Below are positions 23,285-59,787 of a stretch of DNA of 64,000 nucleotides, piece after piece. The notes below the pieces were generated by a model. The model was not told the origin of the DNA, ran no database searches, and worked only from the letters and a program-made list of their open reading frames with translations. The DNA comes from Microbispora bryophytorum (GTDB lineage: Bacteria > Actinomycetota > Actinomycetes > Streptosporangiales > Streptosporangiaceae). The stretch is from assembly GCF_006874465.1 (NCBI RefSeq), contig NZ_VIRL01000004.1:1-64000 (forward strand). The letters are read 5' to 3'. How positions within the stretch are numbered: the stretch's first letter is position 1; each line of letters begins with the position of its first letter. The position numbers were made by a program, and so were the translations under genes.

Positions 23285-24670
23285 TCACGGGTCGCCCAGC
23301 GCGTCGAGGGCGGCCGTGAACGCCTCGGCCGGGGGGCTGACCAGACCCGCTCCCACCTGGCCGGTCCCGGCGATCCTGCCCGCGATGCCGGTGTTCACCA
23401 CGGGCAGCAGACCGGTCCTGGCCACGAGCGCGACGTCGATGCCGGCCGGCGTGCCGCGGAAGCCCAGCCCCGGGATCTGGTACGCCGGGTGCTCGGCCAT
23501 GGTGATCTCGTACATCGAGGTCGTGGCCGTCACGGCGTCGGCCACCTCGCCGCCGACGAACCGGACGATCGCGGGGGCCGCCGCCATGGCGAAGCCGCCC
23601 AGGCCCACCGTCTCGGTGATGGTGGAGTCGCCGATGTCGGGGTTGGCGTCGTGCGGGCCGTATCCGCCGAGGTAGAGGCCGTCGGGCACGCCGGCCGGGC
23701 CGGTGAACCACCGGTCGCCGAGACCCGACACCTGTATTCCGAAATCGGTCCCATTGCGCGCCATCGCCACGACCAGGCTCGACCCGGGCACGCCGCGCGC
23801 CGCGTCGGCGCTGACTTTGGCCGCCGCCATTCCCGCGTTCAGGAAGAAATGATCATTTCCGTTGATGAATCGCAGCACCTCGGCCGCGTGGTCCGGGGCC
23901 GCCTCCACGACCGCGGGCGCGATCTCGCGCACCATCAGGGACGTCGCGGCGCGGTTGCGGTTGTGCAGCTCGTCGCCCATCTGCAGCGCCTGCGCGATGA
24001 GCGTGCGCAGATCGAGGGGGCCGCACCGCTCCAGCGCCGCCGCCAGCGCCGGCCCGAGCACCTCGCCCATCCAGCGCAGCCGCCCGATCACCTCGGGCCC
24101 GTACGCGCCGTAGCGCAGGACCTTGCCCAGCCCCTCGTTCAGCGAGCAGTAGGCCGTGCCGCCGTGCTCGGCGTCGGAGACCTCCAGCATCCACATCGAC
24201 GGGCTGACGACGCCCGCCATCGGGCCGACCGTGCGGTGGTGGTGGCAGGAGTCGAGGGTGATCCCCGCGCCGGAGGCCAGGAGGTCCTCCGCCTCCTCGG
24301 GGGCGGCCGCCAGACCCTCGAACAGCATCGCCCCGACGAGCGCCCCCCGCATCGGGCCGGAGGCCCGTTCCCAGGTGATCGGCGGACCGGCGTGGAAGAA
24401 CTCCCCGGCGCCCAGGCCGAGAGCCTCACGCGCCGGGCGTACGCCGGTCAGCATGGGCCGCGCCGACAGTATCCGCCCCACGGCGGTGGCGTTGGCGCTC
24501 TCGCGCCGGGGGTCGGCCAGCACCCGCGCGAGGGCCGCGGAGGCACCCGGCAGCGGCGGCCGCCAGTCGACCTCCCGCCGCGGCACGGCCTGCCGGTCCA
24601 GCGCCTCGCCCAGCACCTGCGCGCCCACCGTGATGACGCGCGGCTCGCCGTACAGCATGGAGAGGGTCAT
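23285..24670 (-). CDS. allG: AllG-like subunit of oxamate carbamoyltransferase (DUF1116)
   Basis: A 461-residue DUF1116 protein homologous to E. coli YlbE, now called AllG, one of three subunits of the oxamate carbamoyltransferase that converts oxalurate + Pi to oxamate + carbamoyl phosphate. Conserved blocks are SCHHHRTVGPMAGVVSPSMW, INGNDHFFLNAGMAAAKV, ARNGTDFGIQVSGLG and SMYEITMAEHPAYQIP. It follows allH-allF on the minus strand, 34 bp after allF, in the same order as a single transcription unit. The family identity is clear. The substrate could differ, since the locus also has pyrimidine-related genes (see findings). Confidence 0.85.
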   Translation of the reverse strand: MTLSMLYGEPRVITVGAQVLGEALDRQAVPRREVDWRPPLPGASAALARVLADPRRESANATAVGRILSARPMLTGVRPAREALGLGAGEFFHAGPPITWERASGPMRGALVGAMLFEGLAAAPEEAEDLLASGAGITLDSCHHHRTVGPMAGVVSPSMWMLEVSDAEHGGTAYCSLNEGLGKVLRYGAYGPEVIGRLRWMGEVLGPALAAALERCGPLDLRTLIAQALQMGDELHNRNRAATSLMVREIAPAVVEAAPDHAAEVLRFINGNDHFFLNAGMAAAKVSADAARGVPGSSLVVAMARNGTDFGIQVSGLGDRWFTGPAGVPDGLYLGGYGPHDANPDIGDSTITETVGLGGFAMAAAPAIVRFVGGEVADAVTATTSMYEITMAEHPAYQIPGLGFRGTPAGIDVALVARTGLLPVVNTGIAGRIAGTGQVGAGLVSPPAEAFTAALDALGDP

Positions 24671-24704
24671 CCGGCTCCGATCGGGGTAGGCGCGGCCACG
24701 TCCG

Positions 24705-26066
24705 TCACCCGCCCGCGAGAAGGCGGGCGTGCCGGGCGGCCGCGGCGTTGGAGGTGAAGACCGCCGCCCCGGCCTCGTTCAGCCGGGCGGCCTGGGCGCG
24801 CAGCCGCTGGGGGTCGCCGTCGGTGCCGACGACGGCCACGACCACGTCCACATCCCCGGCCACCGCTTCGCGGATCGCGGGCGCGAGCCAGGAGGACGGG
24901 TCGGGGTCGGCGCCGTGCCCGAGCACGACGTCCATCAGCGCGACGCCGGAGGCGACGCCGCGCAGCGCCTCCAGCCGCAGCGTCGGGTCGATCATGGGAT
25001 GGGCCCGGCCCCGGGTATAGGCGTCGTCGCCGAAGTCGGTGAACTCGCCCGTGCCCGCGACGAACGCCGCCTCCGCGCACAGCGTGCCGCCGGCGTAGAG
25101 CCCCCGCAGGGTCCCCGTCGTGTCCGGCCGTCGCGCCGGGGCGGGCCAGGACGGCCACGCGGGCACGTCGCGGCCGAGGGCCCGCAGCGCCTTCTCCGCC
25201 GCGGTGGTCAGGTCGTCCTGCCCCGGCCCGAGCAGCGCGGCGACGACCGGCGTCGCCAGGTCGAGGTCCCGTACGGCACGGGCCACCTCGGGGGCGGGGG
25301 GCTTGGAGACCAGCACGATCAGCTCGGTCGCCGGGTCCTCGTCGAGCGCGCGCAGCGCCTGCACGGCCGAGCGCCCGCCCACCTGGGCGGACAGGTCCCT
25401 GCCGCCCACGCCGAGCACGTGGGACACGCCGACGCCGGCGAGGTCGAGCAGGCTCGTCACCTGCTGGGCGCCGGTGCCCGAGGCGGCCACGACGCCGACG
25501 GGCCCGGGGCGCAGGACGTTGGCGAAGCCCAGGCCGGCCCCGCCCACGACCGCGGTGCCGCAGTCGGGCCCCATCACGAGCACGCCCCTGGCCCGTGCCC
25601 GGTCCTTGAGGAAGATCTCCTGCTCCACCGGCATGTTGTCACTGAAGATCATCACCGAGAGCCCGGCCTCCACGGCGTCGAGCGCCTCGGCGAAGGCGTG
25701 CTCGCCCGGCACGCTCACCAGCGCCAGGCTCGCCTCGAAGGCCCGCGCCGCCGACCGGGTCGTACGCGGCGGCGCCTCGCCCCGCGTCCCGCTCGCCGGC
25801 GCCCGTGCGGCGAGTTGCCGCTCCAGTTCGGCGGCGGCGTCCTCCAGCTCCGCCGGCGAGCCGGCCCGCACCGCCACGAGCAGGTCGCCGGGCGTCGCGG
25901 GCGGCACCGCGAAGCCGAGATCGCGGGCGAGGTCCAGGTTGAGCTCGGTCGCCATCGCGACGACGGCGACGGTGACTCCGGGGTGCTCGGTGAGGGCCCG
26001 GCTCACCCGCATCAGCGTCACGGAGTCGCGGTAGACGCCGGGGCGCACCTCGACCAGATCGTTCAC
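24705..26066 (-). CDS. allF: AllF/FdrA-like subunit of oxamate carbamoyltransferase
   Basis: A 453-residue FdrA-family protein (AllF). It starts VNDLVEVRPGVYRDSVTLMR with the FdrA N-terminal domain, and then has succinyl-CoA-ligase-like CoA-binding and ligase folds: MGPDCGTAVVGGAGLGFANV, VVAASGTGAQQVTSLLDLAG and SHVLGVGGRDLSAQVGG. GTG 26066 overlaps the allH stop (GTGA), so the two are translationally coupled. At 453 residues it is somewhat shorter than E. coli FdrA (about 555), the difference lying at the C-terminus and in loops. Together with AllG and AllH it should form the transcarbamoylase complex. Confidence 0.85.
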   Translation of the reverse strand: MNDLVEVRPGVYRDSVTLMRVSRALTEHPGVTVAVVAMATELNLDLARDLGFAVPPATPGDLLVAVRAGSPAELEDAAAELERQLAARAPASGTRGEAPPRTTRSAARAFEASLALVSVPGEHAFAEALDAVEAGLSVMIFSDNMPVEQEIFLKDRARARGVLVMGPDCGTAVVGGAGLGFANVLRPGPVGVVAASGTGAQQVTSLLDLAGVGVSHVLGVGGRDLSAQVGGRSAVQALRALDEDPATELIVLVSKPPAPEVARAVRDLDLATPVVAALLGPGQDDLTTAAEKALRALGRDVPAWPSWPAPARRPDTTGTLRGLYAGGTLCAEAAFVAGTGEFTDFGDDAYTRGRAHPMIDPTLRLEALRGVASGVALMDVVLGHGADPDPSSWLAPAIREAVAGDVDVVVAVVGTDGDPQRLRAQAARLNEAGAAVFTSNAAAARHARLLAGG

Positions 26067-26968
26067 CGGCCCTCCCGATGGGCGAGGACGGCGGCCAGGC
26101 CGATCTGCACGCCCCACGCGAGGTCGGCGCCCGAGGTGTGCCCGAGGCGGAGCAGACGGTGCACGGCCGGCTCCAGCGGCTGGTGCCCGGCCGCGCCGCA
26201 CAGCACCCCGGTGACCTCCGGGCTCGCCTCGCCTCTGGCGGCGCAGTGCAGCAGGGTGGCCGAGATGGGCGTGGTCCGGGTGCGGGCGTCGTAGGTGACC
26301 GCCGCGGCGAGCCAGTCGGCCAGCCATACGGCGCGCGGCGCTCCCGCCGCCGCGCCGAGGTGCCGCAGCGCGACCAGCAGGCCGGCGAGCATGTCGTCGC
26401 CGCTCGGCGTCAGCCCCGGGCCGAGGCCGATCAGCCGCTCGGCCGCGGTGATGCTCTCCACCAGCGAACCGGACCGGCAGCCGCGATCGAGCAGCGCCGG
26501 GGCGCCGTCCGGGACCAGACCCGGACGCCGGGGCGAGGCCGCGCGGACACGGCCGAGCAGGCCGAGGGCGGGCGCGAGCCGCGCGGGGTCGGCGGGGCCG
26601 AGCGGGGGAGCGGGGTCCCACCAGCGGCGCACGCAGATCGACACGCCGCCGACCTCGACGGACCCCTCGCCGACCCAGGCGTCGTCGCCCGCCGACACCC
26701 CGCCGAGGCGCTCCGCGAGCAGCACGGCGTTGGGCAGACGGGTCGCCTCGCCCGTCACCACGGCGACGACGTGCGGCTCGGCCTCGCTCCTGATCTCCAA
26801 ATAGAGCGCGAGGGGAAGGACCGCGAGCACCCTGGCCGGTCGGCGGGGCGCCTCGATCGTGGGCCGTACGGCCTCGCTCGCGGCGCCGCTCACGTAGGCG
26901 GAGGCCGCCGGGGGGCGGGACGCGGGCGTCGTCGCCCGCCGCCCTTTCGGGCGCGTGCCAACACTCAC
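26063..26968 (-). CDS. allH: AllH-like subunit of oxamate carbamoyltransferase (DUF2877)
   Basis: A 301-residue DUF2877 protein like E. coli YlbF/AllH. The diagnostic stretch is AERLIGLGPGLTPSGDDMLAG, followed by T-x-T-TPISATLLHCAARGEASP. GTG 26968 is chosen because GGGAGGT lies 4 nt upstream; a longer reading to 27229 would run through the promoter region and into the divergent pucR gene. It is the first gene of the allH-allF-allG string. The N-terminal 40 residues are variable. The 200 bp to the divergent pucR should hold both promoters; GTGCCAACA occurs twice there (about 26955 and 27035). Confidence 0.83.
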   Translation of the reverse strand: MSVGTRPKGRRATTPASRPPAASAYVSGAASEAVRPTIEAPRRPARVLAVLPLALYLEIRSEAEPHVVAVVTGEATRLPNAVLLAERLGGVSAGDDAWVGEGSVEVGGVSICVRRWWDPAPPLGPADPARLAPALGLLGRVRAASPRRPGLVPDGAPALLDRGCRSGSLVESITAAERLIGLGPGLTPSGDDMLAGLLVALRHLGAAAGAPRAVWLADWLAAAVTYDARTRTTPISATLLHCAARGEASPEVTGVLCGAAGHQPLEPAVHRLLRLGHTSGADLAWGVQIGLAAVLAHREGR

Positions 26969-27168
26969 CGGGACCTCCCGAAGCCAGTCGTTGCCGACGC
27001 TAAGGCCCGGTCTCCCCCCTCCGTACGGAGAAAGGTGCCAACAGTCGGCCGAATGCTTGGCTCTTCCTGACAGGACCGCGGTCGGGCACAATCGGCCTGA
27101 GACGAGCCCGACGCAGTGAGGGGAGTGGTCCGCGAGGTACGAGCGGCCCGCGTAACGGACGAGGAGCG

Positions 27169-28833
27169 GTGAGCGATCAATGGCCCGGGGACGTCGCGAC
27201 CCCGGTGACGGCATTCTCGGAGACGGCATTGCAGAACGACCCGGCCCCGCCCGCCATGCGCCTGGCGAGCACCGGAACGATCCTCCACGGCGTGTCGGTG
27301 GGCGAGGTGCTCGGGGTCTCGACGCTGGCGGACGCCCGCCTGATCGCCGGGCGGGCGGGCCTCGACCGCATCGTGCAGCGCCTCAACGTGATGGAGGTGC
27401 CCGACATCCTCGCCTGGGTGAAGCCGCACGAGCTGCTGCTCACCACGGGCTACCCGCTGCGCAACACGCCGCAGTCACTCGACCGGCTCGTGGCCGACCT
27501 GGACGAGCGCGGTCTCGCCGCTCTGGCGATCAAGCTCGGCCGCTACCTGGACGAGCTGCCGGGGGAGATGGTCGAGCAGGCCGACCGGCTGGGCTTCCCG
27601 CTGATCCTGCTGCCCAACGACGTGGGCTTCGACGACATCCTCAACCAGGTGCTCACCGACATCCTCAACCGCCAGGCGGCGATCCTCGCCCGTACGGAGG
27701 AGGCGCACCGGGCGCTCGTGCAGATCGTGCTGGCCGGGGGCGGGATGCGGGAGGTCACGGCGGAGGTGGCCGGGCTGCTGCAGGTGGCGGTGGGGGCGAC
27801 CGACGCCGCCGGTCATCTCCTCGCGGCCGCCGGGGAGTCCGGGCAGGTGGCGCGGCTGCGGGAGATCAACGCGGCCCTCGCGCGGACGCAGGCGGCCCCG
27901 CCCGCGGGCGGCGACGGGCACTATGCGGCGGTGCCGGTCGTCGCGGGCGGGCACCACCACGGGAGGATCGCGGCCTACAGCGCCCACGGCACGCTGACCC
28001 CCAGCGACATCGGCATCCTGGAGCGCGCCGCGACCGTCGCCGCGCTGGTGATCACCAAGCAGGAGGCGGTCACCGCGGTCGAGAGCAAATACCGCGCCGA
28101 CTTCCTGCGCGACGTGCTCACCGGGAGGGGCGGGCTGCGGGTGGCCGAGCGCGCCCAGGCGTTCGGCTGGGACGTGGAGCGCCCGGTGAGCGTGCTGGTC
28201 GCCGAGATCGACCCGGACGCCGAGGAACGACCGCTGCAGGACCGCATGCTGGCGGCGTGGCAGGCGGCGGTGCGCAAGCACGACCCGCGCGGCGCGGTCG
28301 CCGGCTTCTCCCACGAGGTCGTGGCGATCGTCGGGGCGGCGGCCGACCCGGCGAAGGTGGCCAGGGACGCGCTCGCCGCCGTCTCCGACGGCACGTTCTC
28401 CACGGGCCTCAGCCGGGTCGCCTCCGGCGTGGACGCCCTGCCCGGCGCGTACGGCCAGGCGCTGAAGGCCGCCAGGGTGGGCCGGCAGCTCCACGGGGCG
28501 GGCGCGATCGCCCACTTCGACGAGCTGGGCGTCTACCGGCTGCTGTCGCTGGTGAACGACACCGACGAGCTGCACGCCTTCGTCCGCGAGACCCTGGGCC
28601 CGCTCGCGGGGGACGACGACGCGGAGAACGCCGACCTGCGCCGCACCCTGCAGGCGCTGCTGGAGACCAACCTCAACGTCGCCGAGACCGCGCGCCGGCT
28701 GCACTTCCACTACAACACCTTGCGCTACCGGATCGGCAAGCTGGAGCGCATGCTGGGCAACTTCACCGAGGACGCGCACCTGCGGCTCAACCTCACCCTC
28801 GCCCTGCACGTCCTGCGCATGAGGGGCATCTAG
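27169..28833 (+). CDS. PucR-family transcriptional regulator
   Basis: A 554-residue regulator. The N-terminal PucR domain is visible (GVSVGEVLGVSTLADARLIAGRAGLDR, then ELLLTTGYPLRNTPQSLDRLVADL). A GAF/GGDEF-like middle follows, and a C-terminal PucR helix-turn-helix ends NLNVAETARRLHFHYNTLRYRIGKLERMLG. PucR proteins activate purine-catabolic genes in Bacillus and related regulators govern nucleobase use in actinobacteria. Its divergence from allHFG, and the uracil permease and molybdenum hydroxylase genes downstream, make it the probable local regulator. GTG 27169 is the longest start; ATG 27256 is possible. Confidence 0.9.
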   Translation: MSDQWPGDVATPVTAFSETALQNDPAPPAMRLASTGTILHGVSVGEVLGVSTLADARLIAGRAGLDRIVQRLNVMEVPDILAWVKPHELLLTTGYPLRNTPQSLDRLVADLDERGLAALAIKLGRYLDELPGEMVEQADRLGFPLILLPNDVGFDDILNQVLTDILNRQAAILARTEEAHRALVQIVLAGGGMREVTAEVAGLLQVAVGATDAAGHLLAAAGESGQVARLREINAALARTQAAPPAGGDGHYAAVPVVAGGHHHGRIAAYSAHGTLTPSDIGILERAATVAALVITKQEAVTAVESKYRADFLRDVLTGRGGLRVAERAQAFGWDVERPVSVLVAEIDPDAEERPLQDRMLAAWQAAVRKHDPRGAVAGFSHEVVAIVGAAADPAKVARDALAAVSDGTFSTGLSRVASGVDALPGAYGQALKAARVGRQLHGAGAIAHFDELGVYRLLSLVNDTDELHAFVRETLGPLAGDDDAENADLRRTLQALLETNLNVAETARRLHFHYNTLRYRIGKLERMLGNFTEDAHLRLNLTLALHVLRMRGI

Positions 28834-29302: not shown

Positions 29303-30685
29303 ATGGCTTTCAGATGGACAGTGCACGGCGACGGCAGAGGGCTGGCACCCGGGGAGGTCGTCAAACCGAACGAGAGGCTGAGCTGGCCGCGCATGGCCGG
29401 CATCGGCGCCCAGCACGTGATCGCCATGTTCGGCGCGACCTTCGTGTTCCCCCTCGTCATGGGGCTGGACCCGAACACGGCCGTGATGATGTCGGGCGTC
29501 GCGACGATCCTGTTCCTGCTCTTCACCCAGGGGCGGATCCCCAGCTACCTGGGCACGTCGGCGTCGTTCGTCGGGGGCGTCGTCGCGGTGCGGGCCGCGT
29601 TCGGCGGCGACACCCCGGGGGCCGACCAGGTCGTGACCGGCGCGATCCTCGTCGCCGGCCTGGTGCTGGCCCTGTGCGGCGTGGCGATCCACGTGCTCGG
29701 CGTGCAGATCATCCACCGCGTCTTCCCCCCGGTCGTGACCGGCGCGGTGGTCATGCTGATCGGCTTCGGCCTGGCGTACGTCGTGGCCGACGTGTACTGG
29801 CCGCAGGACCCGTGGATCGCGCTGATCACGATGGTCGCGACGTTCGTGTTCATCGTGGTGTTCCGCGGCTTCCTCGGCCGGATCGGCGTGCTGCTGGGGC
29901 TGGTCTTCGGGTTCGTCCTGTCCTGGCTCGCCGACAAGGCGTTCGGGAACATCACCGCGTACAACGCGGGCATTGGGAAGATCGACACCCACCCCCGCGT
30001 GAGCTTCCAGGCCGTCGTCGACGCCGACTGGATCGGGCTGCCGCACTTCCACGCCCCGTCGTTCCAGGCGTCGGCCGTGCTGGTCGTGCTGCCCGCCGTG
30101 ATCGCGCTGATCGCGGAGAACGTCGGCCATGTCAAGGCCGTGGGCCAGATGACCGGCGCCGACGTCGACCCCCAGATGGGCAAGGCGATCATCGCCGACG
30201 GCGTCGGCACCGTGGTGGCGACCGCCGTCGGCGGCTCGCCCACCACGACATACGCTGAGAACATCGGCGTCATGGCGGCCACCCGGGTCTACTCGACGGC
30301 CGCCTACTACATCGCCGCGGTCATCGCGATCCTGTTCGGCCTGTGCCCCAAGTTCGGCGCGCTGGTCGCCGCCACGCCCGGCGGCGTGCTCGGCGGCGTC
30401 ACGGTCATCCTGTACGGCATGATCGGGTTGCTCGGCGCGAAGATCTGGGTGGAGAACCGGGTGGACTTCGCCGACCCGGTCAACATGGTGCCGATCGGCG
30501 CGGGGATCATCCTCGCGATCGGGCCGGTCACCCACCAGATCACCGGCGACTTCTCGCTCGCCGGGATCGCGCTCGGCACGATCGTGGTGCTCGCCGGCTA
30601 TCACCTGCTCCGCGCGATCGCGAGCAGACGAGCGAAGGAGGTCACGGGTGGGGAGATCGGGCTCGAACGCGACCCGGCTGTCTGA
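29303..30685 (+). CDS. Uracil/xanthine permease, NCS2 family (UraA/RutG-like)
   Basis: A 460-residue transporter with about 14 membrane segments importing a nucleobase with protons. NCS2 signatures are FGATFVFPLVMGLDPNTAVM, YLGTSASFVGG, the helix-8 motif IALIAENVGHVKAVGQMTG and the helix-10 motif GGSPTTTYAENIGVMAATRV. The latter two (AENxGH, GGSPxTTYAENIG) are those of uracil-type UraA/RutG permeases rather than xanthine/urate permeases, whose helix-8 motif reads differently. ATG 29303 has AAGGGG 5 nt upstream. The molybdenum hydroxylase genes follow after 27 bp, so transport and oxidation of the same base is likely. Confidence 0.88.
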   Translation: MAFRWTVHGDGRGLAPGEVVKPNERLSWPRMAGIGAQHVIAMFGATFVFPLVMGLDPNTAVMMSGVATILFLLFTQGRIPSYLGTSASFVGGVVAVRAAFGGDTPGADQVVTGAILVAGLVLALCGVAIHVLGVQIIHRVFPPVVTGAVVMLIGFGLAYVVADVYWPQDPWIALITMVATFVFIVVFRGFLGRIGVLLGLVFGFVLSWLADKAFGNITAYNAGIGKIDTHPRVSFQAVVDADWIGLPHFHAPSFQASAVLVVLPAVIALIAENVGHVKAVGQMTGADVDPQMGKAIIADGVGTVVATAVGGSPTTTYAENIGVMAATRVYSTAAYYIAAVIAILFGLCPKFGALVAATPGGVLGGVTVILYGMIGLLGAKIWVENRVDFADPVNMVPIGAGIILAIGPVTHQITGDFSLAGIALGTIVVLAGYHLLRAIASRRAKEVTGGEIGLERDPAV

Positions 30686-30712
30686 ACGGCCCGCGCCGCG
30701 GGTGCGAACGCG

Positions 30713-31588
30713 GTGAAGCCGCCTCCGTTCGACTACCACGGCCCGGCCACCCTCGGCGAGGCGCTCGACGTCCTCGCCGAGGCCGGGCCCGGCGGGAAGG
30801 TGCTGGCGGGCGGCCAGAGCCTGATCCCGCTGCTCAACATGCGGCTGGCCGCGCCCGCGCACATCGTCGACGTGAACCGCGTGCCCGGCCTGGACGGGAT
30901 CGAGGCCGGGCCGTCCGGCGTACGCGTCGGGGCTCTGGCCCGCCACGCCGCCGTGGAGCGCTCGCCGCGGGCCGCCGCCGCGCTGCCGCTGCTGCGGCAG
31001 GCGCTGCGGCTGGTCGCCCACCCCGTGATCCGCAACCGCGGCACCGTGGTGGGCAGCCTCGTGCACGCCGACCCCGCCGCCGAGATGCCCGCCGTGCTCG
31101 CCCTGCTCGGCGGGTCCGTACGGATGGCGAGCCGGGGCGGGGAGCGGGAGGTGCCGGCCGCGGAGTTCTTCACCGGCCCGATGGAGTCGGCGCTGCGGCC
31201 CGGCGAACTGGCCGTGTCGGCGTTCTTCCCGGCGCTGCCCCCTCGGTCGGGCACGGCCTTCCACGAGGTGGCCCGGCGGCACGGCGACTACGCGGTGGCC
31301 GGGGTGGCCGCCGCCGTCACGCTGGACGAGGACCTCCGGATCGCCGCCGCCCGCGTCGCCTGTGTGAGCGTGGGACCGGTCCCGGTGGTCGTGGACGTGA
31401 CCGCCGCGTGCGGCCCGCGTCCGGCCGCCTCGGTCGAGTGGGAGGCCGTGGCGCGAGCCGTACGGGACCGGATCGATCCGGAGGGCGACATCCACGCGAC
31501 GGCGGACTACCGGCGGCACCTCACCGGGGTGCTCGCCGCGCGGGCGCTGCGGGACGCCGCCGCGGCGGCCCGCGGGGAGGAATCGTGA
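30713..31588 (+). CDS. Molybdenum hydroxylase FAD subunit (CoxM/XDH family)
   Basis: A 291-residue FAD-binding subunit that passes electrons from the [2Fe-2S] subunit. The first FAD motif is AGGQSLIPLLNMRLA (about 36-50). The second, normally TxGGxxxxxDPxxE, appears as GTVVGSLVHADPAAEMPA, with Val replacing the first Gly; this may alter flavin contact. The C-terminal CO-dehydrogenase flavoprotein domain is present. GTG 30713 has only a weak ribosome binding site. The stop overlaps the start of the iron-sulfur subunit (GTGA). The order FAD, Fe-S, Mo is typical of CoxMSL-like enzymes. Confidence 0.87.
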   Translation: MKPPPFDYHGPATLGEALDVLAEAGPGGKVLAGGQSLIPLLNMRLAAPAHIVDVNRVPGLDGIEAGPSGVRVGALARHAAVERSPRAAAALPLLRQALRLVAHPVIRNRGTVVGSLVHADPAAEMPAVLALLGGSVRMASRGGEREVPAAEFFTGPMESALRPGELAVSAFFPALPPRSGTAFHEVARRHGDYAVAGVAAAVTLDEDLRIAAARVACVSVGPVPVVVDVTAACGPRPAASVEWEAVARAVRDRIDPEGDIHATADYRRHLTGVLAARALRDAAAAARGEES

Positions 31589-32121
31589 ACGAGACACGCC
31601 ATCGGGTGACGCTGACGGTCAACGGGGTCCTGCGCGAGGCGACGGTGCCCGGGCGGCGGCTGCTGTCCGACTGCCTGCGCCACGACCTCGGCCTCACCGG
31701 CACCCACGTGGGCTGCGAGCACGGCGTCTGCGGCGCCTGCACGGTGCTGCTGGACGGCGAGCCGGTGCGGTCGTGCCTGACGTTCGCCGTCATGGTGGAC
31801 GGCCACGAGATCACGACGGTGGAGGGGCTGGCGCGCGACGGCGAGCTGTCGCCGGTCCAGCGGGCCTTCGCCGAGTGCCACGCCCTGCAGTGCGGGTTCT
31901 GCACGCCGGGGTTCCTGTGCACGGTGACCGCGTTCCTGCGGGACAACCCCGCACCGGCCGAGGAGGAGGCGCTGGAGGCCGTGGCGGGCAACCTGTGCCG
32001 GTGCACCGGTTACCAGAACATCCTCAAGGCGGTCCACCGGGCGGCGGAGCTTCAGGCAGAGCTTCAGGCGGAGCCTCGGGCGGAGCGTCAGACAGAACTT
32101 CGGGTGGAGGAGGACCGGTGA
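31585..32121 (+). CDS. Molybdenum hydroxylase [2Fe-2S] subunit (CoxS/XDH family)
   Basis: A 178-residue iron-sulfur subunit. The plant-type cluster ligands are GCEHGVCGACTVLLDG and RSCLTF; the second cluster ligands are CGFCTPGF and NLCRCTGYQNI. The total fits CoxS/NdhS (about 160), extended by a C-terminal tail of imperfect ELQAE/EPRAE repeats rich in Glu. GTG 31585 overlaps the stop of the FAD gene, and its stop overlaps the start of the large subunit, so all three are translationally coupled. The tail is unusual and may be a slippage product at DNA level (GAGCTTCAGGC units). Confidence 0.9.
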   Translation: MNETRHRVTLTVNGVLREATVPGRRLLSDCLRHDLGLTGTHVGCEHGVCGACTVLLDGEPVRSCLTFAVMVDGHEITTVEGLARDGELSPVQRAFAECHALQCGFCTPGFLCTVTAFLRDNPAPAEEEALEAVAGNLCRCTGYQNILKAVHRAAELQAELQAEPRAERQTELRVEEDR

Positions 32122-34526
32122 CGACCAGGTTGTTCGGCGAGCCGGTCCAGCGGCGCGAGGACGCCCGGCTGATCACCGGCCAGGGGCGCTACCTCGACGA
32201 CCTGGGCGCAGGTGCGCTGGCCGCCGCCTTCGTCAGGTCGCCGCACGCCCACGCGCGGATCCTCGACATCGACGTGTCGGCCGCCCTCGACGTGGAGGGC
32301 CTCGTGGCGATCTACACGTGGGAGGACCTGCCGGGCGCGCTGGCCGAGCCGCTGCCGCTGCTGATCCCGCACCCCGCGCTCACCCACGGGCGCACGGCGT
32401 ACCCGCTGGCCCGGGAGATCGTCCGGCACGTCGGCGAGCCGGTCGTGATGGTCGTCGCCCGCGACCGCTACCTCGCCGAGGACGCCTGCGCCCTGATCAG
32501 GGTCGACTACGAGATCCTCAAGCCGGTCGTGGGCATCGAGGAGGCCGTGCGCGGAGTCCACCTCGTGCACGAGGACGTGCCGGGCAACGTCGGCGCGCAC
32601 CTCGTCCAGGAGGTGCCGGGACCGGGCGGGGCGGCCGCGCGGGACGCGATCGCGGCCGCCCCGCACACGCTGGAGTTCCGCCTCGACATCGAGCGCAGCG
32701 CGTCCATGCCCCTGGAGGGGAGGGGCGTGTACGCCCGCTGGGACGCCGACGACGGCTCGCTGCGCGTCTACTCCTCCACGCAGACGTCCACGAGCGTGCG
32801 GATGGCGATCGCGGCCAAGCTCGGGCTGCCGCTGCCCAAGGTGGAGGTCGTCGCGCCCGATGTCGGCGGCGGGTTCGGCGTCAAGATCGTGCATCCGTGG
32901 CCCGAGGAGGTCCTCGTGCCGTGGGCGGCCCGGCTGCTGAACCGCGAGGTCAAGTGGGCCGAGGACCGGCGCGAGCACTTCATCTCGTCGTCGCACGAGC
33001 GCGGCCAGGTCCAGCACGTGCGGGTCGGGTTCGACGACGACGGGCGCGTCCTCGGCCTGGAGGTGGAGATCCTGCACGACCACGGCGCCTACACGCCGTA
33101 CGGGATCATCGTGCCGATCATCACCTCGACCCAGCTGCTCGGGCCGTACAAGGTAGGCGCCTACCGGGTCGAGTTCTCCTCGATCTACACCAACACCGTG
33201 CAGGTCACGCCTTATCGGGGCGCGGGCCGCCCGCAGGGCGTGTTCTGCATGGAGCGGACGATGGACCGCATCGCCGCCCATCTCGGCAGGGACCGCACGG
33301 AGGTCCGCGCGGCCAACTTCATCCAGCCGCACGAGTTCCCGTACGACCAGGGCATGACGTTCCAGGACGGGCGCCCGCTGATCTACGACAGCGGCGACTA
33401 CCCCGAGGCGCTGCGCCTGCTCAAGGAGCTGATCGGCTGGGACTCCTTCCCGGAGGCGAAGGCCCGCGCGGCGGCCGAGGGGCGCAGGATCGGCATCGGC
33501 GTCGGCTGCTACGTCGAGGGCACCGGCGTCGGCCCCTACGAGGGCGGGCACGTGCAAATTACCTCCGACGGCCGGGTGCACGTCTCGACCGGCCTGACCT
33601 CCCAGGGGCAGGGGCACGAGACCGCCTTCGCCCAGATCGCGGCCACCGAGCTCGGCGTGCCGATCGAGAAGGTGTCGGTCGTCACCGGCGACACCCGGCG
33701 CTTCGGGTACGCCGTGGGCACCTTCGCCTCACGGGCGGCCGTGATGAGCGGCAACGCGATCGCGCTCGCCTGCCGGAAGGTCAGGGAGAAGGCGCTGCGG
33801 ATCGCGGCGGAGGCGCTGGAGGCCGACCCGCGCGACCTGGAGATCACCGACGGGACGGTCCACGTCGCCGGCGTGCCGTCGGCGTCGATCCCGCTGGGGA
33901 CCGTCGCCGTGCTGTCCAACCCGCTGCGGTACGCCTTCGACGAGGAGACCAGACGGGCCACCCAGTTCGCCGGGGCCGCCTCCGACGACCGGCCGCCGGT
34001 GGCGGAGGGGGAGGAGCCGGGTCTGGAGGGGCGGGACTACTACTCACCGGTCAGATCCACCTTCGCGGCCGGCATGCACGCGGCGATCGTGGAGACCGAC
34101 CCCGACACCGCCGAGATCAGGATCCTGCGCTACGCCGTCGTCCACGACTGCGGCAGGCTGATCAACCCGATGATCGTCGAGGGGCAGATCCACGGCGGGG
34201 TCGCCCAGGGCGTCGGCGGGGCGCTGTACGAGAAGATGGTCTACGACGAGCACGGCCAGTTGCTGAACGCCTCGTTCATGGACTTCCTGATGCCGTACGC
34301 CACGGAGGTGCCGCACATCGAGACGGCCCACCTGGAGACGCCCTCGCCGCTGAACCCGCTGGGGATCAAGGGCGCGGGGGAGGCCGGGGTCATCCCGGTC
34401 TCGGCCGTCATCGCCTCCGCCGTCGAGGACGCCGAGGGCATCACGATCGCCCGGATGCCCATCTCCCCCTCCGACCTCCACCACCTGCGCCTCACGCCTC
34501 AGGGAGCGCCCGGAAGCGATCAGTGA
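32118..34526 (+). CDS. Molybdenum hydroxylase large (molybdopterin) subunit, xanthine-dehydrogenase/CoxL family
   Basis: An 802-residue Mo-pterin subunit. Family motifs are ITGQGRYLDD at the N-terminus, PDVGGGFGVKI, VTPYRGAGRPQG in the substrate region, GTGVGPYEGGHVQI, LTSQGQGHETAFAQIA and KGAGEAGVIPV with the catalytic Glu of GAGEAG. The active-site loop is PYRGAGRP, not the AYxCSFR of true aerobic CO dehydrogenases, so it is not a form I CoxL. Hydroxylation of an N-heterocycle is likely. Given the uracil-type permease just upstream and a barbiturase-family gene elsewhere in the window, uracil/thymine is the best guess; xanthine or hypoxanthine is the alternative. It overlaps cydB by 7 bp tail to tail. 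Confidence 0.88.
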   Translation: MTTRLFGEPVQRREDARLITGQGRYLDDLGAGALAAAFVRSPHAHARILDIDVSAALDVEGLVAIYTWEDLPGALAEPLPLLIPHPALTHGRTAYPLAREIVRHVGEPVVMVVARDRYLAEDACALIRVDYEILKPVVGIEEAVRGVHLVHEDVPGNVGAHLVQEVPGPGGAAARDAIAAAPHTLEFRLDIERSASMPLEGRGVYARWDADDGSLRVYSSTQTSTSVRMAIAAKLGLPLPKVEVVAPDVGGGFGVKIVHPWPEEVLVPWAARLLNREVKWAEDRREHFISSSHERGQVQHVRVGFDDDGRVLGLEVEILHDHGAYTPYGIIVPIITSTQLLGPYKVGAYRVEFSSIYTNTVQVTPYRGAGRPQGVFCMERTMDRIAAHLGRDRTEVRAANFIQPHEFPYDQGMTFQDGRPLIYDSGDYPEALRLLKELIGWDSFPEAKARAAAEGRRIGIGVGCYVEGTGVGPYEGGHVQITSDGRVHVSTGLTSQGQGHETAFAQIAATELGVPIEKVSVVTGDTRRFGYAVGTFASRAAVMSGNAIALACRKVREKALRIAAEALEADPRDLEITDGTVHVAGVPSASIPLGTVAVLSNPLRYAFDEETRRATQFAGAASDDRPPVAEGEEPGLEGRDYYSPVRSTFAAGMHAAIVETDPDTAEIRILRYAVVHDCGRLINPMIVEGQIHGGVAQGVGGALYEKMVYDEHGQLLNASFMDFLMPYATEVPHIETAHLETPSPLNPLGIKGAGEAGVIPVSAVIASAVEDAEGITIARMPISPSDLHHLRLTPQGAPGSDQ

Positions 34527-46841: not shown

Positions 46842-48340
46842 ACGAAGGCGGCACGGGCCGGCCGGACGCGCGGACGCTGATCGCGCGGGTACTCGATCCG
46901 CACTCGTGGAAGTCGTGGGACGAGCCTCCGCGGGACCGGGCCGCTCCCGGGTCGGACTACGCCGCCGAACTCGCCCGCGTCCGGGCCAGGACGGGATACG
47001 ACGAGTCGGTCGTCACGGGTGAGGGCACGCTCGACGGACGCCGGGTGGCCGTCGCCGCCTGCGAGTTCTCCTTTCTGGCCGGCTCGATCGGGGTGGCGGC
47101 CGCCGAGCGGCTCGTCCGGGCCGTCGAACGGGCCACCGCCGAGCGCCTGCCGCTGCTCGCCGCCCCCGCCAGCGGGGGCACCCGCATGCAGGAGGGCGCA
47201 CTGGCCTTCACCCAGATAATCAAGATCACCGCGGCGGTCGCCGCCCACCGCGCCGCCGGCCTGCCGTACGTCGTCTATCTGCGCCATCCCACGACGGGCG
47301 GGGTGCTCGCGTCGTGGGGCTCGCTCGGGCATGTGACGGCCGCCGAGCCGGGCGCGCTCATCGGCTTCCTCGGGCCTCGGGTGTTCGAGTCGCTGCACGG
47401 CTACCCGTTCCCCCAGGGAGTCCAGGTCGCGGAGAACCTGCACGCCCTCGGGCTGGTCGACGCCGTGGTCTCGGCCGGGGACGCGCGGGAGGTCGCCGTC
47501 CGGGCGCTGACCGTGCTCTGCGCCCCGCGCGCGGGGCTGGATCCCGGCCCGGAACCCGAGGAGGCGGACGAACCGGTACCGGCGTGGGAGGCCGTCACCC
47601 GCTCGCGCCGCGACGACCGCCCCGGCGTGCGCGAGCTGCTCAGATACGGCGCGCGGGACGTGACCCCGCTGCGCGGCACCGGCACGGGGGAGCGCGACCC
47701 CGGCCTCCTGCTGGCGCTGGCCAGATTCGGCGCCGCGCCCGCCGTCGTCCTCGGTCAGGACCGGCGGCGGCAGCGGGCGGGCAGCCCGCTCGGCCCGGCA
47801 GGGCTGCGGGTGGCCAGGCGCGGCATGCGCCTGGCGGGCGAACTGCGCCTGCCGCTGGTCACGGTCGTCGACACCAGTGGGGGGGAGCTGTCGAAGGCGG
47901 CCGAGGAGGGCGGCCTGGCCGCCGAGATCGCCCGCTGCCTGGCCGACCTCGTCATGCTCGACGCGCCGACCGTGTGCCTGCTGCTGGGGGAGGGCGCCGG
48001 CGGCACCGCGCTGGCCCTGCTCCCGGCCGACCGGGTCGTCTGCGCGCAGCACGCCTGGCTGTCGCCGCTCCCGCCGGAGGGCGCGTCGGCGTTGCTGTAC
48101 CGGACCGTCGACTTCGCCCCGGAGATCGCCGCCGCACAGGGCGTACGCGCCGCCGACCTGCGGCGGGACGGCATCGTGGACAGGATCGTGCCGGAACGGC
48201 CGGACGCGGCGTACGAGCCGGAGGAGTTCTGCCGCAGGGTCGGCCGCACGCTCGGACACGAGATCGCGGGGCTGCTGGACCGCCCGGAGGGGGAGCGGAC
48301 GGCGGCCCGCTTCGCCCGCTACCGGTCGCTCGGCTCCTGA
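46838..48340 (+). CDS. Acyl-CoA carboxyltransferase-type protein (fused alpha/beta carboxyltransferase)
   Basis: A 500-residue crotonase-superfamily carboxyltransferase. The first half has the beta-like domain (FSFLAGSIGVAAAERLVRAVE; APASGGTRMQEGALAFTQIIK; ASWGSLGHVTAAEPGALIGFLGP). The second half has the alpha-like domain (LPLVTVVDTSGGELSKAAEEGG; LLLGEGAGGTALALLPADRVV). No biotin-carboxyl-carrier or biotin carboxylase gene is adjacent, so it must borrow these or act as a decarboxylase-type carboxyltransferase. ATG 46838 overlaps the CoA-transferase stop, so both probably act on the same acyl-CoA. Confidence 0.85.
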   Translation: MNEGGTGRPDARTLIARVLDPHSWKSWDEPPRDRAAPGSDYAAELARVRARTGYDESVVTGEGTLDGRRVAVAACEFSFLAGSIGVAAAERLVRAVERATAERLPLLAAPASGGTRMQEGALAFTQIIKITAAVAAHRAAGLPYVVYLRHPTTGGVLASWGSLGHVTAAEPGALIGFLGPRVFESLHGYPFPQGVQVAENLHALGLVDAVVSAGDAREVAVRALTVLCAPRAGLDPGPEPEEADEPVPAWEAVTRSRRDDRPGVRELLRYGARDVTPLRGTGTGERDPGLLLALARFGAAPAVVLGQDRRRQRAGSPLGPAGLRVARRGMRLAGELRLPLVTVVDTSGGELSKAAEEGGLAAEIARCLADLVMLDAPTVCLLLGEGAGGTALALLPADRVVCAQHAWLSPLPPEGASALLYRTVDFAPEIAAAQGVRAADLRRDGIVDRIVPERPDAAYEPEEFCRRVGRTLGHEIAGLLDRPEGERTAARFARYRSLGS

Positions 48341-49332: not shown

Positions 49333-50124
49333 TTACGATCTGTGGACTCCGAGCCGGCGGTGTTCGAGCGAGGGGAGGGTGGCGCGCGCGGTCTCGGTCC
49401 ACGCCGTGTCGATCTCCGCGATCAGCACGCCGGGGCCCGTGCCCAGGTCATGCCGGGCGACGCCCATCGGATCGACGAGCATGCTGCGGCCCACACCGAA
49501 CCCGTCCGGTATGGCGGGATTAGGCGCTTGACCGACGGCGATGGTCCAGGTGGTGTTCTCGATCGCCCTGGCCCTGACGAGGGTCGTCCAGTGCTCCTCC
49601 TTCAGCGGCCCCGAGCCCCAGGCGGCGATCACCGCGAACGTGTCCGCGCCCTGGTCGACCAGCGCGCGGGCCAGCTCGGGGAAGCGGACGTCGTAGCAGG
49701 TGATCAGGCCGATCCTGAGCCCGGCCAGCTCCACGACCGCCGGCGCGTCCCCCGGCGCGACCAGCTTCGACTCCTTCGCGCCGAAGGAGTCGAACAGGTG
49801 GATCTTCCGGTAGGCCGCGGCGAGCGAGCCGTCCTCCCGCAGGGCGACGGCCGTGTTCCAGACCCTGCCGTCCGCGGCGGGCTCGAAGACGCCGGCGATG
49901 ACGGCCGTGCCGTGCTCGCGCGCGGCCTCGGCCAGGCCGGTGACGAACGGGCCGTCCAGCGGCTGGGCCGTCTCGACGACCCCCGGGCCGAACCGGGTGA
50001 GCGTCGCCTCGGGGAAGACGGCGAGGTCCGCCTCCGGCGCCCGCGCGAGGGCTTCACGCACGGTCGAGAGGTTGGTCTCCGGGTCGTGGTCGACGGGGAT
50101 CTGGCACAGCGCTACGCGGGTCAC
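49333..50124 (-). CDS. Carbon-nitrogen hydrolase (nitrilase superfamily)
   Basis: A 263-residue amidase. The catalytic triad is visible: Glu in LAVFPEATLTRFG (about residue 40), Lys in AAYRKIHLFDSFG (about 107), and Cys in GLITCYDVRFPEL (about 143). The second Glu in KEEHWTTLVRARAIEN also fits. The sequence resembles omega-amidase/Nit-type enzymes that hydrolyse short dicarboxylic acid amides, so a malonamate- or succinamate-type substrate is conceivable. The gene overlaps the 3' end of the DUF418-like gene by 71 bp. No signal peptide; cytoplasmic. Confidence 0.9.
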   Translation of the reverse strand: MTRVALCQIPVDHDPETNLSTVREALARAPEADLAVFPEATLTRFGPGVVETAQPLDGPFVTGLAEAAREHGTAVIAGVFEPAADGRVWNTAVALREDGSLAAAYRKIHLFDSFGAKESKLVAPGDAPAVVELAGLRIGLITCYDVRFPELARALVDQGADTFAVIAAWGSGPLKEEHWTTLVRARAIENTTWTIAVGQAPNPAIPDGFGVGRSMLVDPMGVARHDLGTGPGVLIAEIDTAWTETARATLPSLEHRRLGVHRS

Positions 50125-56309: not shown

Positions 56310-56513
56310 ATGGCCATGACGCTTCGCCTGACCGATGAGCAGACCGAGGCCCTCCGGCGGTGCGCCGAGAGGGAAGGCCGGAGCATGCGGCAGATCGCCT
56401 TGGACGCGATCGACGACTACCTCACCCGCGTCGCCGACGACGAGTACACCGACATTTTGGCCGAGAAGGGGGCCCAGCGTTTCGCGGACCTTCTGCGCAG
56501 GCTGGGAGAATGA
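56310..56513 (+). CDS. Ribbon-helix-helix antitoxin-like protein
   Basis: A 67-residue protein, MAMTLRLTDEQTEALRRCAE and then REGRSMRQIALDAIDDYLTR, with a beta strand followed by two helices as in RHH/CopG-type DNA-binding proteins. The C-terminal DEYTDILAEKGAQRFADLLRRLGE would bind the toxin. Its TGA overlaps the ATG of a Doc-like toxin gene (ATGA). Type II antitoxins of this kind autoregulate their promoter. ATG 56310 or 56316 may be the start. Confidence 0.85.
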   Translation: MAMTLRLTDEQTEALRRCAEREGRSMRQIALDAIDDYLTRVADDEYTDILAEKGAQRFADLLRRLGE

Positions 56514-57518: not shown

Positions 57519-57745
57519 GCGGATCTCCATAAGAGGGGGGCAGTGGCGAGCATTCTGGCAGAAGTCGCCTCAGATGTGAGCCGGTCGGGCGACGGGACGC
57601 TCTTGCGCCAGGACCCCGGGGGAGGCGGTCCTGCCGCTCGGTGCCGAACGCATGTGCCGAGCTTGGTGAAATCTGCCCATGGATGCGGCAGGGGTGGGCG
57701 AGACTCGCCAATGAAGGCCCCGATGGGGCTGGATAGTTTCCGGAT

Positions 57746-58681
57746 GTGGGCGGACGCGTACTGATCGCACTGGGCGGCAACGCCATGACGGCTCCCGACG
57801 GGAGCGCGTCTCCGGCCGACCAGCAGCGGGCGATCGGCGAGGCGATGGCCAGCGTGGCGGCTCTGAGCAGGGCCGGGCACGAGGTGGTGCTCACCCACGG
57901 CAACGGCCCCCAGGTCGGCAATCTCCTGCTGAAGAACCAGCTCGCCGCCCACGTCGTGCCGCCGGTGCCGCTCGACTGGTGCGTGGCCCAGACGCAGGGC
58001 ACGATCGGCACGCTCGTCATGAACGCCCTGCAGCGCGAGCTGGGGCACGCCCGGGTGGCGGCGATCGTCACCCGCACGCTCGTGGACCCGGCCGATCCCG
58101 CGTTCCAGGACCCCGTCAAGCCGATCGGGCGGTACTTCGGAGAGGACGAGGCACGCCGATTCGAGCAGCACGGCCAGGTTTGGCGGCGCTTCGACCGCGG
58201 ATGGCGACGGGTGGTCGCCTCGCCGCGGCCCGTGGAGATCCTGGACGCCCCCGCGGCCGTCGCGCTCATCGACGCCGGATTCACCGTCGTCGCGGCGGGG
58301 GGCGGGGGAGTGCCGGTCGTGCGCGGGGCGGACGGCACGCCGGCCGGAATCGAGGCCGTGATCGACAAGGATCTCGCCGCCGCGGCGCTGGCGGTCGCCG
58401 TCGGCGCCACCGACCTCGTGATCGCGACCGACGTGCCGTACGCCGCCGTCGACTTCGGCACGCCTCGCGCCCGCCCCATCGGAGAGATCGACGTGGCCGC
58501 CCTGCGCGGGCTGCAGGCGGCCGGTCACTTCGCCGGAGGCAGCATGGGGCCCAAGGTCGAGGCCGCCCTGTGCTTCGCCGAGGAGACCGGGGGACGGGCC
58601 GTGATCACCTCGCTGCACCACATCGGTGCCGCGCTGTCAGGAAATATCGGTACGAGGGTGTACAGAGGGGTGGAGAGATAG
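57746..58681 (+). CDS. Carbamate kinase
   Basis: A 311-residue amino-acid-kinase-family enzyme, catalysing carbamoyl phosphate + ADP to carbamate + ATP. Motifs are [75 protein letters not shown] and the C-terminal [16 protein letters not shown]. Length matches ArcC/AllK (about 300-315). GTG 57746 lies about 8 bp after a GATAGT hexamer, so the mRNA is probably leaderless. Its stop overlaps by one base the GTG of a barbiturase-family gene, tying it to ring-cleaving catabolism. No arginine deiminase genes are nearby, which argues against the ADI pathway. Confidence 0.92.
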
Positions 58682-59787
58682 TGCCGGATCCGATCGAGGT
58701 ACGGAAGGTCCCCATCGAGAGAGTCACCGACGCCTCCGGGCTGGCGAGGCTGATCGACGACGGTGTGATCGAGGCCGACCGCGTGCTTGCCGTGATCGGC
58801 AAGACCGAGGGCAACGGCGGCGTGAACGACTACACGCGGATCCTGGCCGACCGGGCCTTCCGCGAGGTGCTCATGGCCAAGGGCACGCGCACCGCCGAGG
58901 AGGTCGCGCAGGTGCCCCTGGTGTGGTCGGGCGGCACCGACGGCGTGCTCAGCCCGCACGCGACGGTCTTCGCGACCGTCGATCCGGCCACGGCCGTACG
59001 GACCGACGAGCCGCGGGTGAGCGTCGGCGTGGCGATGAGCGAGGTGATCCTCCCCGAGGACGTCGGCAGGCCCGCCATGGTCGAGAAGGTGGCCGCCGGG
59101 GTGCGCGAGGCGATGAAGATCGCCGGCATCGACGACCCGGCCGACGTGCACTACGTGCAGACCAAGACGCCGCTGCTCACGTTGTCCACGATCACCGACG
59201 CCAAGGAGCGCGGCCGGACGGTGGTCACCGAGGACACGCTGAAGTCGATGGACATCTCCAACTCCACCACGGCGCTCGGCATCGCGGTCGCGCTCGGGGA
59301 GATCGAGACGCCCTCGGCCGAGCAGATCCACAAGGACCTGTCGCTCTACTCGTCGGTCGCCTCGTGCTCCAGCGGCGTCGAGCTCGACCGGGCGCAGATC
59401 GTCGTGGTGGGCAACGTACGCGGGATCGGCGGGCGCTACCGCGCCGGACACTCGGTCATGAAGGACGCCCTGGACACCGGCGGGATCTGGGAGGCCATCC
59501 GCGGCGCGGGCGTCGACCTGCCGGAGCGCCCGCACCCGGACGATCTCGGCGACCGGCTGGTGAACCTGTTCATCAAGTGCGAGGCCGACCCGTCGGGCCG
59601 GGTACGCGGGCGGCGCAACATCATGCTCGACGACTCCGACGTCCACTGGCACCGCCAGATCAAGGCGACCGTCGGCGGGGTGGCGGCGAGCGTGACCGGC
59701 GACCCGGCCGTGTTCGTCTCCGTGGCGGCGGTGCACCAGGGGCCGTCCGGCGGAGGGCCCGTGATCGCCATCGCCGACCTGGGCTGA
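58681..59787 (+). CDS. Ring-opening amidohydrolase, barbiturase/cyanuric acid hydrolase family
   Basis: A 368-residue member of the rare toblerone-fold amidohydrolases. Three internal repeats are marked by [40 protein letters not shown] and [26 protein letters not shown]; the Ser-containing ends ([16 protein letters not shown]) and Lys residues of each repeat form the active site. [21 protein letters not shown] and [17 protein letters not shown] are strongly conserved. Members open barbiturate to ureidomalonate or cyanuric acid to carboxybiuret. The linked uracil permease and molybdenum hydroxylase favour barbiturase. GTG 58681 is read from the overlap with the kinase stop. Confidence 0.9.

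Follow-up and report, generated by a model that had tools for sequence, protein, structure and literature searches.

A barbiturase-linked AllFGH and carbamate kinase gene set in Microbispora bryophytorum points to a phosphorolytic branch of oxidative uracil breakdown

Genes of the Microbispora locus

Can an AllFGH-type enzyme, together with a carbamate kinase, take the place of ureidomalonase in the breakdown of uracil? The question is raised by a 64,000-nucleotide stretch of Microbispora bryophytorum DNA (contig NZ_VIRL01000004.1, positions 1 to 64,000; this whole stretch is called the window below), which holds genes for three AllFGH-type subunits, a carbamate kinase, a ring opener of the AtzD/Bar family, a three-subunit molybdenum (Mo) hydroxylase and a nucleobase permease. 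An earlier note on this DNA had suggested that these genes could form an energy-conserving route from uracil, and every gene it named was found at its position by profile scans, translations and gene calls. Our analysis favors oxidative breakdown of uracil with a phosphorolytic branch, at a probability of about 0.72 for the scheme as a whole. AllFGH and carbamate kinase would most likely stand in for ureidomalonase there, because they co-occur with barbiturase and alternate with an amidase of the PRK07486 type. The core genes are these:

23285..24670, minus strand: AllG-like subunit (PF06545, 328.2 bits; 46.7% identity to Escherichia coli AllG over 409 aa; in the barbiturase-linked tree group)
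24705..26066, minus strand: AllF (FdrA)-like subunit (PF00549, 83.4 bits; NF004760, 363.7 bits, below its cut-off of 433; 38.6% identity to E. coli AllF)
26063..26968, minus strand: AllH-like subunit, start uncertain (26968 or 26893) (PF11392, 95.7 bits; 32.6% identity to E. coli AllH over 132 aa)
57746..58681, plus strand: carbamate kinase (PRK12352, 288 bits, passing the cut-off of 266; TIGR00746, 329.5 bits, short of the cut-off of 358)
58681..59787, plus strand: barbiturase by sequence, AtzD/Bar (Toblerone) family (PF09663, 490.8 bits; match to 5hwe; five signature residues)

The allH, allF and allG genes form a tight minus-strand operon (AllH and AllF overlap by 4 bases) with homologs of all three subunits, as judged from PF06545, PF00549, PF11392 and gene order, the FdrA model staying below its cut-off; AllF and AllH were scanned as parts of longer open reading frames (ORFs). 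Membership of the kinase in the carbamate kinase family rests on the PRK12352 match. Divergent from the operon run a PucR-type gene starting at 27169, then the permease gene, then the three Mo hydroxylase genes. The kinase and barbiturase genes lie 31 kb beyond AllFGH and overlap, as the earlier note had it; the overlap is a single base. The genome measures 7.85 Mb, and its barbiturase shares 98% identity with the Microbispora catharanthi enzyme. ARAGORN called a tRNA-Ser(GGA) at 26131-26210, minus strand, within the allH coding sequence; this is probably a false call.

The ring opener

Membership of the ring opener in the AtzD/Bar family is clear from PF09663 and from TIGR02714 (539.5 bits against a cut-off of 153). 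Its closest solved structure is 5hwe, entitled 'Barbiturase' (593.7 bits over 368 aa, a full-length alignment), followed by chains of cyanuric acid hydrolases at 323 bits or less. According to Peat et al. (PMC3758960), five positions separate barbiturase from cyanuric acid hydrolase activity, the barbiturase signature being Asn, His, Lys, Val and Ser/Ala at AtzD positions 195, 321, 325, 345 and 346. The window enzyme is barbiturase-like at all five (N194, H324, K328, V348 and A349). We read it as a barbiturase because the closest structure and the specificity residues agree. Signatures of 109 homologs in the fetched loci were NHKVA (90), RTRGG (8), NHKVG (6), NHKVS (3) and divergent or cut (2).

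Divergent Toblerone homologs with neither signature were also seen, beside a dihydropyrimidinase-type gene (L161 9616-12199; L and G numbers are our handles for loci and genomes) and beside amidase genes (L098 9413-12048 and, by similarity, L140 1-2293). These could possibly represent further substrates of the fold.

Co-occurrence of barbiturase and AllFGH

The earlier note had expected barbiturase genes to travel with allFGH and carbamate kinase genes, as against a ureidomalonase. We sampled 101 genomes of the order, 296 of the phylum and 66 of a second class (the class of G109). The outcome was as predicted, near one to one in the order and again in the second class. In the order, AllG and the AtzD/Bar family occurred together in 53 genomes, AllG alone in one, the AtzD/Bar family alone in two and neither in 45 (totals of 54 for AllG and 55 for AtzD/Bar). 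Corresponding numbers in the class of G109 were 22, 3, 1 and 40. The Fisher p-values, 4e-25 for the order (relatedness uncorrected) and 3e-13 for the class of G109, are descriptive only, because the genomes are related and cannot count as independent. Barbiturase and AllFGH are genuinely linked, almost one to one in the order.

Physical linkage was frequent. Both genes were on the same contig in 41 of the 53 order genomes, 22–101 kb apart (median 35 kb), and in 15 of the 22 genomes of the class of G109, where the spacing was 6.2–9.8 kb in 14 and 17.7 kb in one. The kinase gene was directly upstream of the barbiturase gene in 60 of 80 close relatives of the window.

Trees of 36 AllG and 31 AllF proteins (matches covering less than 60% of the query left out; midpoint root) placed 17 barbiturase-linked rows, with G095, in one group, at supports of 99/97 for AllG and 100/99 for AllF. 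Outside it fell the E. coli proteins, on long branches, and the cyanurate-linked and HyuAB-linked rows; the window AllFGH does not group with the E. coli enzyme. AllFG proteins linked to HyuAB without barbiturase formed a separate group. A second, distant AllG paralog was found beside an amidase-cluster gene (L108, L109) in G069 and G078, both of which also carry the barbiturase-linked copy.

In the class of G109, where 23 genomes have barbiturase, we fetched the neighborhoods of 11. Here barbiturase and AllFGH sit in compact clusters that also hold PucR, a transporter, carbamate kinase, CoxG and Mo hydroxylase. The most complete gene order, that of G109 (L123 followed by L082), reads CoA-transferase, HyuB, HyuA, amidase, CoxG, Mo hydroxylase genes MoL, MoS and MoM, two regulatory genes, AllG, AllF, AllH, carbamate kinase, permease, barbiturase and a divergent PucR. 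In G186 an unbroken permease-to-HyuB run (L137) and the barbiturase gene lie on separate contigs. ABC transporter genes take the position of the permease in G208, G379 and G369 (the last by similarity). An AtzE-like amidase (PF01425) is present in the clusters of G109, G151, G175, G218, G326, G124 and G186, and an asparaginase-family gene in those of G379 and G369, both assignments made in part by similarity; neither kind was found in the fetched stretches of G208 and G197. No allantoin-pathway genes were recognized among the cluster genes scanned, a scan that covered part of the ORFs.

Barbiturase loci without AllFGH

What accompanies barbiturase when AllFGH is missing? In the genus of G150, where a barbiturase group free of AllG was first sought, the AtzD/Bar family occurred in 6 of 59 genomes, each time with cyanurate-type residues. 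Of 301 genomes in the family of G150, 19 have a barbiturase at 480 bits or more. Three of the 19 also carry AllG: in G507 it lies ∼25 kb away (342 bits), in G731 and G766 elsewhere in the genome (245–251 bits). We fetched 13 AtzD/Bar loci in this family, 12 from the 19 genomes plus that of G749 (462 bits). In 10 of the 13, a PRK07486-type amidase gene lies 103–169 bp from the barbiturase gene (717 bits for the one scanned). None of these 10 loci has AllF, AllG or carbamate kinase within the 19-kb stretch, and no AllG match was found genome-wide. The ureidomalonase side of the survey also agreed with the earlier expectation, a different amidase adjoining barbiturase in such loci, of the Rhodococcus erythropolis type, with no carbamate kinase in the 19-kb stretches. 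The other three differ. G507 has barbiturase, carbamate kinase, carboxyltransferase, CoA-transferase, HyuB and HyuA, without the PRK07486-type amidase; the G547 locus has neither that amidase nor AllFGH and kinase; and G749 has a divergent homolog (RERGG), not barbiturase-like, beside a dihydropyrimidinase-type gene.

In two of the 10 amidase loci the barbiturase is identical over 103 residues to 5hwe, which we take to be the R. erythropolis barbiturase, and in a third it is 99% identical. Ureidomalonase is said to have been purified from R. erythropolis. The amidase gene is a candidate for it:

L154 7654-9159: PRK07486-type amidase beside barbiturase, ureidomalonase candidate (equivalents in L152, L153, L156-L160, L162 and L163)

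No PRK07486-type homolog was found in the window or in the stretches of its 80 relatives. The simplest reading of this alternation would be that AllFGH with carbamate kinase and the PRK07486-type amidase are alternative solutions for ureidomalonate.

The molybdenum hydroxylase and CoxG

The oxidation of uracil is assigned to a three-subunit enzyme, with a CoxG-like protein encoded nearby:

30713..31588, plus strand: Mo hydroxylase FAD subunit (PF00941, 153.8 bits; PF03450, 56.6 bits)
31585..32121, plus strand: Mo hydroxylase 2Fe-2S subunit (assigned from cysteine motifs read in the translation and a gene call)
32118..34526, plus strand: Mo hydroxylase molybdenum subunit, proposed for uracil to barbiturate (PF02738, PF20256; NF040766, 1525 bits against a cut-off of 950)
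37359..38036, plus strand: CoxG-like protein with a hydrophobic C-terminus (PF06240, 86.9 bits)

NF040766 is named for the aerobic CO dehydrogenase large subunit. In the order sample it scored above its cut-off in 54 of 55 genomes that have barbiturase and in 0 of 46 that lack it; all 54 matches were at 1422 bits or more and the next was at 621. The exception, G006, is 77% complete. Aerobic CO dehydrogenase has a cysteine-bearing active-site loop, AYXCSFR. This loop is missing from the window subunit, which has TPYRGAGRPQ; the earlier note had rightly reported PYRGAGRP in its place. The [T/S]PYRGAGRP form appears in every homolog long enough to show it, HyuAB-linked ones included. On loop and genome distribution we reject a CO dehydrogenase. 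The model name is doubtful because its matches track barbiturase and the cysteine loop is missing; the family probably comprises misnamed uracil hydroxylases.

In CO oxidation, CoxG is tied to electron transfer to membrane quinones. Homologs of the CoxG-like protein directly follow the Mo subunit in clusters of the class of G109, and by analogy the protein may serve such electron transfer here too.

Proposed pathway

Between AllFGH and the kinase-barbiturase pair lie, among others, genes for cytochrome bd subunit I, CoxG, HyuAB, a class III CoA-transferase, an AccD-AccA-type carboxyltransferase and a CN-hydrolase. HyuAB (40894-44776), the CoA-transferase and the carboxyltransferase were absent from the gene list of the earlier note; they recur near barbiturase elsewhere. 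The further genes that the scheme draws on, with HyuAB, are:

29303..30685, plus strand: NCS2 nucleobase permease (PF00860, 250 bits; RutG 355.9 bits and uracil permease 258.6 bits, neither reaching its cut-off)
40894..42939, plus strand: HyuA, hydantoinase/caprolactamase-type subunit (PF01968, PF05378; CapA 486 bits, below its cut-off of 1000)
42929..44776, plus strand: HyuB, partner of HyuA (PF02538, 452.3 bits)
45675..46841, plus strand: class III CoA-transferase, proposed for malonate to malonyl-CoA (PF02515, 402.9 bits; nearest NCBIfam models are dicarboxylate CoA-transferases, below cut-offs)
46838..48340, plus strand: AccD-AccA-type carboxyltransferase, proposed for the malonyl-CoA step (PF01039, PF03255; accD 173 bits, below cut-off)
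49333..50124, minus strand: CN-hydrolase, possible malonamate amidase (PF00795, 177 bits; nearest model deaminated-glutathione amidase, 235.5 bits, below its cut-off of 355)

In the pathway that we propose, the permease would import uracil and the Mo hydroxylase would oxidize it to barbiturate, passing electrons to the respiratory chain, perhaps via CoxG. Barbiturase would open the ring to give ureidomalonate. Ureidomalonate is oxalurate with one additional CH2, and carboxybiuret, which arises from cyanurate, is ureidomalonate with NH in place of CH2. AllFGH would then cleave off the terminal carbamoyl group with phosphate rather than water (ureidomalonate + Pi to malonamate + carbamoyl phosphate), at the point where the Rhodococcus ureidomalonase would hydrolyze ureidomalonate and yield urea. 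Carbamate kinase would use carbamoyl phosphate to make ATP from ADP, with release of CO2 and ammonia. A lineage-dependent amidase would convert malonamate to malonate, which the CoA-transferase and carboxyltransferase would pass towards acetyl-CoA; these last two occur together in 7 of the 10 Rhodococcus-type amidase loci as well.

For malonamate, the AtzE-like amidase or the asparaginase-family protein could serve in clusters of the class of G109. No homolog of either was found in the window or in the stretches of 80 close relatives, so in the window lineage the CN-hydrolase, with homologs in the stretches of 44 of the 80, or an unlinked enzyme would have to take this role.

HyuAB turned up in 14 of 16 barbiturase genomes of the AllFGH type (the exceptions being G151 and G078) and in none of the 10 amidase-type stretches, a count that leaves out G208, G197 and G369, whose contigs end or break. 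Its substrate may be malonamate, thymine-derived 5-methylbarbiturate or something else. Loci L104, L105 and L107 contain Mo hydroxylase, HyuAB and AllFG, with no barbiturase in the stretch or genome, and perhaps represent a sister pathway for another cyclic imide.

Alternatives and points against the pathway

PucR and NCS2 proteins serve purines too, and AllFGH could be a standard oxalurate enzyme of the purine route that simply shares a PucR-controlled nucleobase nitrogen region with pyrimidine genes. The AllFGH with measured activity does use oxalurate (PMC11326118). We nonetheless consider such a role unlikely in view of the near one-to-one occurrence of AllG with barbiturase in the order and the second class, the separation of barbiturase-linked AllF and AllG from the E. 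coli proteins in the trees, and the lack of any recognized allantoin-pathway gene among the scanned portion of the cluster ORFs. An oxalurate role is further weakened because no homolog of E. coli AllD was found in the window's own genome at E 0.001, and because AllD-type homologs, present in only 16 of the 53 order genomes with AllG and barbiturase, are commoner in those with neither gene (25 of 45). Just as improbable, in our judgment, is that AllFGH acts on the product of the ATP-dependent HyuAB, from another cyclic imide (for example one from thymine), leaving uracil to barbiturase and a separate enzyme. The distribution of HyuAB fits this idea, as do the three loci that combine it with Mo hydroxylase and AllFG without barbiturase. 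Set against it, HyuAB was not found near the clusters of G151 and G078, which both have AllFGH and barbiturase, and the AllFG proteins of HyuAB loci without barbiturase group separately. AllG is missing from 16 of the 19 barbiturase genomes in the family of G150, but a hydrolase stands in the place of AllFGH in 10 of 10 amidase-bearing loci, which points to the barbiturase product as the shared substrate.

The ring opener might instead use a triazine, cyanuric acid or a relative of it, with AllFGH acting on biuret or carboxybiuret and the tie to uracil being secondary. The window enzyme does score above the cut-off of NF052395, the NCBIfam cyanuric-acid equivalog (469.3 vs 360), AllFGH and carbamate kinase genes adjoin cyanurate-type openers on plasmids, and in nitrifiers they lie beside biuret or triuret hydrolase genes (PMC12625717). 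Yet the plasmid enzymes have RTRGG where the window enzyme is barbiturase-like at five of five positions, and co-occurrence is exact with a Mo hydroxylase that would be useless for opening cyanurate. We take NF052395 to be too broad a model, reject on residues that the ring opener is a cyanuric acid hydrolase despite it, and hold this alternative to be the least likely of the three.

Several observations nevertheless weigh against a uracil pathway with AllFGH, the NF052395 score among them. Every substrate, product and reaction in the scheme is inferred from genes, barbiturase residues, linkage, tree grouping and the alternation with the amidase. The AllFGH family is not tied to barbiturase, since 22 of 36 AllG genomes of the phylum sample lack it (14 of the 296 genomes have both, 22 only AllG, four only barbiturase and 256 neither), and the p-values given above overstate the independence of genomes. 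AllG and barbiturase are on different contigs in 12 of the 53 order genomes. In the window itself 31 kb separate the kinase-barbiturase pair from AllFGH, and in 18 of the 80 relatives no kinase gene was seen immediately before barbiturase, with two more lacking enough room. Barbiturase occurs without AllG in G020 (100% complete) and G004 (97% complete). G020 keeps the Mo hydroxylase and permease, and no replacement enzyme was recognized there by scanning ten neighbor genes and by amidase searches. Conversely G095 has AllG and no barbiturase; it also has no NF040766 match above cut-off, and its AllG branch is long (0.69). In the six NHKVG homologs the fifth residue is Gly instead of the Ser or Ala of the published signature. 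HyuAB accompanies AllFGH yet has no job in the proposed pathway, and the CN-hydrolase at 49333 is a possible but unproven choice, leaving no malonamate amidase assured in the window.

Regulation and neighboring genes

Two features lie at the divergent promoter region:

27169..28833, plus strand: PucR-type regulator gene, divergent from allHFG (weak PucR/CdaR-type NCBIfam matches, all below cut-off; homologs beside barbiturase in the class of G109)
27037..27061, no strand: operator-like inverted repeat GCCAA-N15-TTGGC between allH and pucR (sole match in the window, 0.11 expected, present in 11 of 100 shuffles)

A plus-strand ORF at 27180 was rejected as a wrong frame, the real gene being that at 27169-28833. 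The same repeat arrangement was read by eye in L091 and L120. A shared operator was also rejected, as the repeat occurs once in the window and not before the kinase-barbiturase pair. The sequence GTGCCAACA occurs twice in the window, both copies within 90 bases at the allH-pucR repeat.

A cytochrome bd subunit I gene (35443-36906) follows shortly downstream of the Mo hydroxylase genes, and subunit II is probably encoded at 34520-35431, an assignment made by position. Homologs of cydA are also near the cluster in L092, L119 and L121.

Meaning and comparison with known systems

If the proposed pathway is right, two or more actinobacterial groups have a second form of uracil catabolism that saves energy, and the role of AllFGH is wider than oxalurate. 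We know of no assigned genes for the uracil-oxidizing Mo hydroxylase or the ureidomalonase step; the NF040766 family and the PRK07486-type amidase provide candidates. Counts of CO oxidizers that rely on the NF040766 name would need correcting. Among the matches listed in a search of open full-text literature, with subscription papers mostly outside it, we found none that describes barbiturase together with carbamate kinase or AllFGH, which leaves the novelty of the combination in print unproven.

The E. coli AllFGH converts oxalurate and phosphate reversibly to oxamate and carbamoyl phosphate (PMC11326118). The window shares its three homologous subunits and a carbamate kinase, corresponding to AllK, and N-acylurea phosphorolysis is what we propose here too. 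It differs in its linkage to barbiturase and Mo hydroxylase rather than allantoin genes, the lack of AllD, its separate tree group and a proposed substrate longer by one CH2. Purine breakdown in Rubrobacter uses a ureidoglycine carbamoyltransferase and carbamate kinase (PMC4016543). There also phosphorolysis and the kinase replace a hydrolytic ureide step, but the route is that of purines and the enzyme belongs to the aspartate/ornithine transcarbamylase superfamily, not to AllFGH.

In nitrifiers, allFGHK genes beside those for biuret or triuret hydrolases have been read by the authors as serving oxalurate degradation (PMC12625717). The likeness is an AllFGH with carbamate kinase in a ureide cluster outside allantoin breakdown; the difference is the lack of a barbiturase there. 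Cyanurate-type openers (RTRGG) have AllFGH and carbamate kinase genes as neighbors on two plasmids (L149 8972-21391, L150 10992-18633), one from Aminobacter sp. SR38, which a paper title describes as degrading atrazine, and one from Citrobacter freundii, and organism tallies suggest the same pairing on further enterobacterial plasmids. A broader N-acylurea role of AllFGH is supported by these plasmid loci and the nitrifier clusters. We give even odds to the view that AllFGH and carbamate kinase are a general N-acylurea phosphorolytic module, joined more than once to a Toblerone opener, with barbiturase (ureidomalonate) in Actinobacteria and with cyanurate hydrolase (carboxybiuret or biuret) on proteobacterial plasmids, which would draw ATP from uracil and from s-triazines.

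A further close relative of the proposed pathway is the oxidative pyrimidine pathway of Rhodococcus, which proceeds from uracil to barbiturate and on through barbiturase and ureidomalonase (Soong and co-workers, as told in PMC3758960). Both would share the first steps and the same kind of barbiturase, and a CoA-transferase and carboxyltransferase are found near barbiturase in both kinds of locus. They part at ureidomalonate: R. erythropolis-type loci have the PRK07486-type amidase, and their stretches show neither AllFGH nor the kinase, whereas in loci of the window type AllFGH and carbamate kinase take that place.

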